DNA of 64,000 nucleotides from Blastococcus sp. DSM 46786 (GTDB lineage: Bacteria; Actinomycetota; Actinomycetes; Mycobacteriales; Geodermatophilaceae), in assembly GCF_900109665.1 (NCBI RefSeq), contig NZ_FOAO01000009.1, forward strand, positions 62,001 through 126,000, written 5' to 3'. The notes below the pieces were generated by a model, which was not told the DNA's origin, searched no databases, and worked only from the letters and a program-made list of their open reading frames with translations. Each line of letters opens with the position of its first letter. Within the stretch, counting starts at the first letter, position 1. Positions 54,385 to 56,798 of the stretch are shown in pieces. A program made the position numbers and the translations under genes.

Positions 54385-54673
54385 CGTCATCTCCTCGAGG
54401 TGACTCGTCGGTCGTGGAGCCTGATCGCGCACTCCACTCGGTCAGGTCAACGCCCGACACGCCCACAGCGTTCCACAGCCGGCCGCAATCCGGCTCACCC
54501 CCGTGGGTGCGGGTCGGATCCGTTGTCGCCGGGGAGCCACCCGCGCCGTCTCCCGCGCCGGCGATGAGCGCTCGCCGAGCGGACCGCGCGGGGCCTGCCC
54601 GATGCTGTCCTGGCCGCGGCCGACCGCTTCCCAGCAGCACCGGCCGGCCGACCGCCCCGATCGGAGCCTCCCC

Positions 54674-55909
54674 ATGACCGCCGACGCGCCAGGCCCCGCC
54701 GTCGAGGGGCGGCCGCCCAACCCCTTCCTGCAGGTGACCCTGGACGAGCTGCGCCGCAGGACGAGCACCAAGTGGCGCACCTACCCGCCCGACGTGCTGC
54801 CGCTGTGGGTAGCGGAGATGGACGTCCTGCTGGCACCCGCCGTCCGGGAGGCGCTGCACCGCGCGGTCGAGACGGGCGACACCGGCTACCCCGCGGGTCA
54901 GGAGTACCCGGAGGCGGTGGCCGCCTTCGCGGCCGACCGGTGGGGCTGGACCGGCGTCGACCCGGCCCGCACGGCGCTCGTGCCCGACGTGATGACCGGC
55001 ATCGTGGAGGTGCTCCGCCTCCTCACCGGCCCCGGCGACGTCGTGGTGGTGACCCCGCCGGTGTACGCGCCCTTCTACGCCTTCCTCGAGCACGCGGACC
55101 GCGCGGTGGCGGAAGCGCCGCTGGACGCGTCCGGCCGCCTGGACCTGCAGGCGCTGGAAGCCGCCTTCGCCGGGGCCCGCGCCCGTTGTGCCCATCCGGC
55201 CTTCCTGCTCTGCAACCCGCACAACCCCACCGGCGCCGTGCACACCCGCGCGGAGCTGGAGGCCGTCGCCGCGCTCGCCCGGCGGCACGGCGTGCGGGTC
55301 GTCTCCGACGAGATCCACGCACCGCTCGTCCTCCCCGGCGTCCGCTTCGTGCCCTACCTGAGCGTCGCCGACGACGGCTTCGCGCTGGTGTCGGCGTCGA
55401 AGGCGTGGAACCTCGCCGGCCTCAAGGCGGCCGTTGTGGTCGCCGGGCCGGAGGCGGCCGGGGACCTGGCCCGCCTGCCCGAGGAGGTCGGCCACGGGCC
55501 CAGCCACCTCGGCGTCCTCGCGCACACCGCGGCCTTCCGCGACGGGGGCGGCTGGCTGGACGCCCTGCTCGCCGCCCTGGACGAGAACCGGCGGCTGCTG
55601 CAGCAACTCGTGGCCGAGCACCTGCCGACGGCGGCGCTGCGCGCACCGGAGGGGACCTACCTGGGCTGGCTGGACTGCCGCCCGCTGGGCCTCCCGCCGG
55701 AAGCGCCCAGCAGCGGCCTCGCCGTCGTGAGCGACCTCGACGGGCCGGCCCGGTTCTTCCTCGACCACGCGCGGGTGGCCCTGAGCTCGGGCCACGTCTT
55801 CGGCACCGGGGGCGCCGGGCACGTGCGCATCAACCTCGCCACCTCGCCCGCCGTGCTGACCGAGGCGCTGACGCGCATGGGCCGGGCGGCCACGGCCCGG
55901 ACCGGGTAG
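54674..55909 (+). CDS. MalY/PatB-type PLP aminotransferase (cystathionine beta-lyase)
   Basis: Fold type I PLP enzyme of 411 residues, probably with cystathionine beta-lyase or C-S lyase activity. The opening [19 protein letters not shown] is the MalY/PatB signature. [18 protein letters not shown] supplies the Asn/Pro motif, [14 protein letters not shown] the conserved Asp, and [17 protein letters not shown] contains the PLP lysine Lys243. ATG 54674 follows GGAG with 9-base spacing. It may feed methionine synthesis or regulation; no operon partner is visible. Confidence 0.9.
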
Positions 55910-55919
55910 GCCGGCGTCG

Positions 55920-55993
55920 TGCCCCCGGTCGGGTTCGAACCGACACTGGGACCCTTTTAAGGGGCCTGCCTCTGCCAGTTGGGCTACGGGGGC
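55920..55993 (-). tRNA. tRNA-Leu-like, anticodon UAA, short variable loop
   Basis: The - strand folds into a cloverleaf of 74 bases. Acceptor GCCCCCG pairs with CGGGGGC, the D arm has GCC/GGC with the usual GG in its loop, anticodon stem GGCCC/GGGTC holds loop CTTAAAA (U33, anticodon UAA), and the T arm is GTCGG/CCGAC with TTCGAAC. The discriminator is A73, as in leucine tRNAs, and no CCA is encoded. Anticodon UAA reads UUA (Leu), but the variable loop is only 5 bases (CCAGT), whereas bacterial tRNA-Leu is normally a long-variable-arm (type II) molecule. The type and amino acid are therefore uncertain. Confidence 0.85.
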
Positions 55994-56036
55994 GCGGGAG
56001 GCACGGTAGCGGGCCGGGTACCTCACGGCCCGCTGA

Positions 56037-56798
56037 TCAGCTCGACGCCAGCTCGGTCGCCCGGGCCAGGACGGCGTCCAGCATCGGCTCGGTGAGCTTG
56101 CCGGTGAAGGTGTTCTGCTGGCTGACGTGGTAGCTGCCCAGCAGGGCCAGCGGGCCGCGGGGGCCGGTCAGCGGCACCTCGACGCCGTGCCCGAACACCG
56201 GCCGCGGGCGGGGCAGCGCGTATCCCGCGGCGGCGAGCACCGGCCACAGCGCCGTCCAGCCGAAGCCGCCCAGCACCACGACCACCCGCAGCCGCGGCAG
56301 CAGCTCCAGCTCGCGGGCCAGCCAGGGCGAGCAGGTGTCCCGCTCCTCGGGCGTGGGGGCGTTGGCCGGCGGGGCGCAGCGCACCGCGGCGGCCACCCGC
56401 ACGTCGGTGAGTTCCAGCCCGTCGCCGACGTGCGTGGACGTCGGCTGGCTGGCCAGGCCCGCGCGCCACAGCGCGGCGAAGATCCAGTCGCCGCTGCGGT
56501 CGCCGGTGAACACCCGGCCGGTGCGGTTGCCCCCGTGCGCGGCGGGGGCGAGGCCGACGACGGCGATCCGCGCGTCGGCCGGGCCGAGCCCCGGTACCGG
56601 CCGGCCCCAGTACTCCTCGTCGCGGAACGAGGCGCGCTTGACGCGGGCCACCTCCTCCCGCCACGCCACCAGCCGCGGGCAGGCGTAGCAGCCGGAGATG
56701 CGCTCGTCGAGCACGGGCAGCTCGCGGGCTCCCCGGGCGCTGCGCACCACGCCCGGGGGCGTGCGGGTGACGGGGAACCCGCCGGCATCTAGGGGCAT
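56037..56798 (-). CDS. Family 5 uracil-DNA glycosylase (UdgB-like)
   Basis: Base-excision repair enzyme that removes uracil and related bases. The 253 residues include the catalytic region VVGLAPAAHGGNRTGRVFTG, four cysteines fitting an iron-sulfur cluster (CYACPRL, CAPPANAPTPEERDTC), and the second active-site motif GSYHVSQQN. The start is uncertain: ATG 56798 is inside a hairpin repeat and lacks a Shine-Dalgarno, while GTG codons inside PPGVVRSARG (about 56750) could serve instead. It lies downstream of ppx on the same strand. Confidence 0.85.
   Translation of the reverse strand: MPLDAGGFPVTRTPPGVVRSARGARELPVLDERISGCYACPRLVAWREEVARVKRASFRDEEYWGRPVPGLGPADARIAVVGLAPAAHGGNRTGRVFTGDRSGDWIFAALWRAGLASQPTSTHVGDGLELTDVRVAAAVRCAPPANAPTPEERDTCSPWLARELELLPRLRVVVVLGGFGWTALWPVLAAAGYALPRPRPVFGHGVEVPLTGPRGPLALLGSYHVSQQNTFTGKLTEPMLDAVLARATELASS

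Follow-up and report, generated by a model that had tools for sequence, protein, structure and literature searches.

Leucine tRNAs are placed among the long-armed class II tRNAs in the accessible part of a tRNA structure review (PMC7609411). The description of tRNAscan-SE 2.0 (PMC8450103, in its available text) takes the absence of the long arm to indicate misidentity in one human leucine tRNA and pseudogenes among fungal serine tRNAs. For Escherichia coli tRNALeu, the available portion of PMC9976931 names A73, the A15–U48 pair, G18G19 and A20a as the features that matter, states that the sequence and folding of the long arm do not matter and describes variants without the anticodon arm and the long arm that remain active. 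According to the same text, human mitochondrial tRNALeu(UUR) lacks a long arm and is specified through A73 and A14, and in the archaeon Haloferax leucine identity is reported to involve the long arm. A search of one open-access library, by title and the start of the abstract, showed no paper on a type I tRNALeu(UAA) shared by a whole bacterial lineage or on switching between the two forms.

The gene described here very probably encodes a functional leucine tRNA without a long variable arm, the only UUA reader found in its genome, as judged from sequence comparisons. With bacterial type II tRNALeu(UAA), including bldA of Streptomyces, it shares the anticodon, A73, A14A15, U48 and a three-pair D stem, but its form lacks the long arm and mostly has A9 and the D stem GCC:GGC instead of G9 and GCG:CGC or GTG:CAC. 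Like bldA, it is the sole UUA reader found in a UUA-poor genome, whereas bldA has the type II structure (bldA-like loci L294 and L302–L304). Human mitochondrial tRNALeu(UUR) is also a UUR leucine tRNA without the long arm, recognized via A73 and A14 (PMC9976931, available text), but it belongs to an organelle, while the present gene lies on a bacterial chromosome beside type II CUN readers. A short-loop leucine tRNA in Actinomycetota is also described in the accessible part of PMC6582537, namely a Mycobacterium tRNALeu(TAG); it supplements a normal copy and belongs to a horizontally acquired cluster, in contrast to the sole reader found here, a single gene in a housekeeping block. Type I tRNALeu of phages (for instance Streptomyces phage CeilingFan and Rhodococcus phage Trina, annotated as tRNA-Leu(taa)) have the same form and anticodon, but are mobile and more variable: among 96 distinct viral type I tRNAs with any leucine anticodon, 84 have A73 and 11 have U73.

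ARAGORN finds a single tRNA in the window, by which we mean the whole 64-kb stretch that was analysed: tRNA-Leu(taa) at 55919–55993 on the minus strand. The Rfam model RF00005 matches 55920–55993 with 51 bits (E 3.4e-9; gathering score 29). The 74-nt length, UAA anticodon, five-base variable loop and A73 given in the first-pass annotation are thus agreed on by ARAGORN, Rfam and the sequence, with the gene on the minus strand. The check by tRNA finder and covariance model that it proposed returns anticodon TAA and a score above gathering, and its statement that no tRNA is adjacent holds, as ARAGORN detects no second one in the window. The tRNA has a 7 bp acceptor stem, a D arm of three pairs with an extended loop (CAACUGGCAGA) and the anticodon loop CUUAAAA. 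All features are collected in Table 1.

Table 1. Coordinates of the tRNA gene, its parts and its neighbours in the window.
Feature	Position	Strand	Basis
Type I tRNA-Leu(UAA), 74 nt, A73, CCA not encoded	55920..55993	-	ARAGORN, Rfam, relatives
Anticodon UAA	55957..55959	-	ARAGORN; sequence
Variable loop CCAGU, 5 nt, U48 last	55945..55949	-	Sequence, parsed
Positions 8–26: three-pair D stem GCC:GGC, extended loop with A14, A15 and GGCAGA	55967..55986	-	Parsed sequence
Candidate -10 promoter element TACCGT	56003..56008	-	By-eye comparison with relatives
Uracil-DNA glycosylase (UDG) superfamily gene, upstream neighbour	56037..56798	-	Pfam PF03167
PatB-like aminotransferase gene, convergent	54503..55909	+	Pfam PF00155

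The UDG gene is on the same strand as the tRNA, ends 43 nt upstream of it and, within 1.5-kb flanks, is its neighbour in 20 of 30 related loci. A PatB gene does lie downstream, as had been noted, but it is convergent and within the same flanks accompanies the tRNA in only three of the 30 loci, its own included. The block around the tRNA is read as eno, ftsB, DUF501, ppx and UDG; UDG and the aminotransferase were assigned by family search, the other names being read from the block. With one tRNA in 64 kb and a housekeeping block around it, the setting is not that of a prophage, a plasmid array or a tRNA cluster.

In the genome (4.59 Mb, 99.99 percent complete) Rfam finds 48 tRNA matches, and ARAGORN on the matched stretches reads five leucine tRNAs, with anticodons CAG, GAG, UAG, UAA and CAA. 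The first three are type II, with variable arms of 15, 17 and 13 nt, respectively, and both UUR readers are type I with a 5-nt variable loop, the CAA gene being located elsewhere (G000:C10:146412-146485). Rfam, ARAGORN and pattern searches found neither a further UAA tRNA of either form nor a type II CAA tRNA in this genome; one extra CAA-like pattern match was not taken for a tRNA. The search for a separate type II UAA tRNA suggested in the first-pass annotation thus came back empty, and the idea of a second UUA tRNA alongside a normal one finds no support, given also that none of 118 genomes (below) showed both UAA forms. A single LeuRS lies above the family cut-off in the genome; weaker matches to the family are taken for related synthetases.

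Comparison of 55 distinct type I UAA tRNAs shows that the acceptor and T stems pair throughout and that the anticodon stem fails once, with many stem pairs changed on both sides. A73 and A14A15 are each present in all 55 and U48 in 53, and all three are found in each of 34 distinct type II UAA tRNAs. The D loop reads GG(C/T)AGA in 55 of 55 (GGCAGA in the window tRNA). The E. coli determinants A15–U48, G18G19 and A20a are present in the window tRNA, the numbering of A20a being our own reading of the D arm. The variable loop is 5 nt long in 52 of the type I UAA tRNAs and 6 nt in the other three, so that the long arm typical of bacterial tRNALeu is missing from all of them. The rest of the core differs as well: A stands at position 9 in 72 of 75 distinct type I tRNAs and G in 39 of 40 type II tRNAs, and positions 10–13 read GCCC in 73 of 75 versus GCGG or GTGG in 34 of 40. 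Together with the codon alignments described below, the retained determinants favour a leucine isoacceptor, one of the options raised earlier. The altered synthetase recognition once attached to that option is unneeded, because the long arm is not among the E. coli LeuRS determinants given in the available text of PMC9976931.

A blast search with the tRNA gave matches in 53 of 60 relatives, some of the weaker ones being CAA tRNAs or fragments; the best 30 loci are all type I UAA by ARAGORN (the genome itself, 26 of the same family and three others of the same order). A strict type I UAA pattern occurs in 66 of 396 Actinomycetota genomes, a lower bound as G076, G104 and G334 carry the type I UAA tRNA yet escape the pattern. 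Since the same pattern read backwards has no match among the 396 genomes, the type I UAA tRNA is not a product of chance, and the conservation in other actinobacteria that had been asked after is present. In the window's own family, pattern search finds the type I UAA tRNA and no type II copy in 17 of 17 other genomes. By length, the CAA tRNA in the same 17 genomes is type I in 15 and type II in G027 (checked with ARAGORN), and G030 has none.

Whether the two UAA forms exclude each other was assessed from every TTAAAN{14,34}GTTCRANNC match in 118 genomes, comprising 80 chosen ones (known positives and negatives mixed, not random) and 38 relatives. Type I alone is found in 82 genomes, type II alone in 34, both in none and neither in two (G143 and G048, the latter of 82 percent completeness), in a test blind to UAA tRNAs that depart from the pattern. 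ARAGORN read all 34 type II genes and, by our count, 56 of the 82 genes of type I; the remaining type I genes were classed by gap length. The one apparent double, G422, was discarded because its long match (L287) is not a tRNA by ARAGORN. The second match of G417 corresponds to the 3' half of a tRNA and does not count as another gene. Among the matches listed, a CAA match of type II length is present in many genomes with a type I UAA tRNA, and G090, G039 and G040 combine a type II UAA tRNA with a type I CAA tRNA. From these mixed combinations, the UAA and CAA readers seem to change form separately. In G047, tRNA-Leu(CAA) is present in both forms (L331 and L332), and the type I copy has U73 in place of A73, so it may not be a leucine acceptor.

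The two forms can be compared at one site in the family with handle f32. A search with the adjacent protein matched 32 of 39 f32 genomes and yielded 30 loci, of which 27 have a UAA tRNA within reach (18 type I and nine type II) and three have none in the fetched piece. Three pairs of the same genus differ in form: G272/G122 and G133/G110, in which the tRNA follows the same upstream genes, and G252/G304, which have downstream neighbours in common. In G272 and G304 a contig end lies close to the tRNA; the cleanest pair is G133/G110, assembled in three and four contigs and 99 and 100 percent complete. The forms thus share their locus. The acceptor stem (GGGGGCG) and most of the T arm are also common to both, while the D arm, the variable region and part of the anticodon stem differ. 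On a tree of two neighbouring proteins the tRNA form needs seven changes, at least six of them forced by well supported branches, and changes also occur within genera. A single clade is rejected for type II (p-AU 1.7e-6) as well as for type I (p-AU 2e-61). Shuffling the form labels gives a mean of 9.6 changes, with 22 of 500 shuffles requiring no more than were observed, so the form tracks descent only loosely. The architecture of the tRNA appears to have switched repeatedly at one locus in this family, type II being probably the older form, as inferred from its spread in bacteria. In the type II genomes G047, G039 and G054 of the window's own order, a UDG orthologue is likewise close by, at most about 2 kb from the tRNA and separated from it by another gene.

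How the type I form reached this site is a separate matter. It is possible, although we hold it to be the less probable course, that phages or plasmids supplied the type I gene, or an inner portion of it, which then replaced the type II gene; the alternative is that the form arose at this site by mutation. A reservoir for this exists, with 41 phage records that match the tRNA (37 of them covering at least 80 percent of the query), at least 120 stretches of the type I UAA form in a pattern scan of viral contigs, and type I genes in plasmid tRNA arrays. The D stem GCC:GGC is also held in common, occurring in 53 of 55 cellular UAA, five of seven cellular CAA and 42 of 96 viral type I tRNAs (the CAA tRNA of the window's genome has CCC:GGG). 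Against import stands the f32 family, where both forms occupy the same site beside the same neighbours and carry the acceptor stem and T arm of the family. Recombination of a short inner tract could, however, bring in the D arm and variable loop, so the shared f32 locus is still compatible with import.

The viral set itself is heterogeneous. Given that 11 of the 96 have U73, part of the viral type I tRNAs (loci L073–L082, L084 and L115–L194) may not be leucine acceptors. Apart from the type I UAA tRNAs, the leucine tRNAs in 81 viral loci are six UAG tRNAs of type I, three CAA tRNAs of type I and one of type II, and one GAG and one UAA tRNA of type II. Nine plasmid records match, and of the six fetched, five have a type I UAA tRNA and one (Tsukamurella) a type I CAA tRNA. 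The type I form lies in plasmid tRNA arrays of Mycolicibacterium sp. TY66 and Bifidobacterium longum (L338 and L339), which are dense arrays of divergent tRNA genes and in B. longum include an ARAGORN tRNA-Pyl(cta). On the Tsukamurella plasmid NZ_LR134447.1 (L341), the type I tRNA-Leu(CAA) gene adjoins an annotated site-specific integrase gene.

Traces of integration are seen in two cellular genomes. In G417:C51:117000-131000 (L343), about 12 kb separate the type I tRNA-Leu(UAA) from a copy of its 3' half. Genes for a phage-type integrase (PF00589) and for a D5_N primase-like protein lie in between, so the tRNA looks like the integration site of a small phage-like element. In G041:C16:91500-96500 (L344), a partial copy of positions 30–75, 89 percent identical, lies about 2.4 kb from an intact type I tRNA and is perhaps another integration scar.

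An unlikely account is that the tRNA serves as a developmental switch in the manner of bldA and is kept mainly to gate rare genes that bear UUA. UUA does not occur in 16,870 codons of predicted window genes, which for the codon tests were chosen by GC at the third codon position and not by a gene finder, and it occurs three times in 28,351 codons of other loci of the genome, which overlap each other and partly the window. Low UUA is, however, expected at 74 percent GC, and the type I UAA tRNA is also found in genomes richer in UUR codons, the LeuRS genes of G446 and G286 having three UUA and 17 UUG, and four UUA and 15 UUG, respectively. The likeness to bldA drawn in the first-pass annotation stands for the anticodon and the rarity of the codon but not for the form: the f18 genomes, which we take to be Streptomyces from their bldA-like sequences, carry a type II UAA tRNA.

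It is very unlikely that the tRNA carries another amino acid, with UUA reassigned or mistranslated, a possibility that had also been put forward. Its type I shape would fit this, its acceptor stem is identical to those of the genome's own tRNA-Arg(CCG) and tRNA-Arg(CCU), and A73, A14, A15 and U48 occur together in both tRNA-Lys, tRNA-Ala(UGC) and tRNA-Arg(ACG) of the same genome. With the set common to these four tRNAs, the determinants are consistent with leucine and no proof of it. Anticodon determinants are C35 for ArgRS, U35 for LysRS and G34A35A36 for PheRS, and the window tRNA has none of them. In f32, moreover, the type I form stands where relatives have a type II Leu(UAA). The codons were approached by masking UUG and UUA as X in the window genes and aligning these to six relatives. 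At 19 UUG sites of the window, the 67 aligned codons are 12 UUG, 50 CUG or CUC and five others (two Phe, and one each of Met, Val and Ala), and at 161 UUG sites across all seven genomes 493 aligned codons are non-UUR leucine codons, followed by Phe (19) and Val (18). UUA is so rare that its meaning at the level of the family rests on three usable sites in relatives, where eight of ten aligned codons are Leu and two Ser, together with UUG.

A larger sample of UUA came from LeuRS genes, taken from 17 genomes of type I and 13 of type II, again with UUA masked. The type I genomes provide 14 UUA sites, at eight of which Leu is the commonest residue; overall, 189 of 380 residues (50 percent) are Leu, compared with 53 percent for CUC, 54 percent for CUG and 47 percent for UUA in type II genomes. 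The top residue at the other six sites is Val (2), Tyr (2), Thr (1) or Gly (1), and known leucine codons behave alike. Since UUR sites align with leucine at about the rate of CUN sites, the alignments speak against another amino acid and indicate, indirectly and with few UUA sites, that UUA and UUG are probably decoded as leucine.

Scans for a sigma-70 consensus and a terminator at the window locus found nothing. Upstream of the tRNA there are nevertheless conserved elements that resemble a -10 box: TATACT lies at most 50 nt upstream in 20 of 27 f32 loci, both forms included, and among 19 relatives of the window from the same genus, compared by eye, TA(C/G)CGT is at a similar distance in 15, farther upstream in three and variant in one. 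As the consensus scan is empty and the element was judged by eye, we only infer that TACCGT is a -10 element. That the gene is an unexpressed pseudo-tRNA is most improbable, for although UUA is almost absent from the predicted genes and the consensus promoter scan is empty, the stems of 55 distinct relatives show near-full pairing with two-sided changes, 17 of 17 other family genomes have the type I gene and no type II copy, and no other UUA reader was found in the genome.

For the functional leucine tRNA that we favour, the gene would be transcribed from its own promoter and CCA added to the transcript. The single ordinary LeuRS would charge it via A73, A14, A15–U48 and the corner of the D and T loops, with the variable arm ignored. 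The armless form goes with a different core, mostly A9 and GCCC at positions 10–13. The plain explanation of the switching is drift under a LeuRS that ignores the arm.

A more speculative and rather doubtful possibility, based on analogy, is that in Actinomycetota anti-phage or toxin tRNases attack tRNALeu(UAA) at its long arm. The armless tRNA would then be a resistant allele carried by phages and repeatedly swapped into the native locus, the form flipping under an arms race. The available part of PMC13096335 describes cleavage of tRNATyr in its variable loop by retron-Eco7 and by Septu; the tRNATyr of phage T5 has another variable loop and thereby withstands the retron. In cells, human SLFN11 has a preference for type II tRNAs, and tRNA-Leu is cut less when the arm is missing, but only minor differences between type I and type II are seen in vitro (PMC11615386, accessible text).

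Whole bacterial lineages appear to rely on an armless tRNALeu(UAA). Switching between the forms at one locus is a natural experiment that shows which changes of the core accompany loss of the arm. It also allows a test of whether the arm makes no difference to LeuRS or is selected on by enzymes that cut tRNA.
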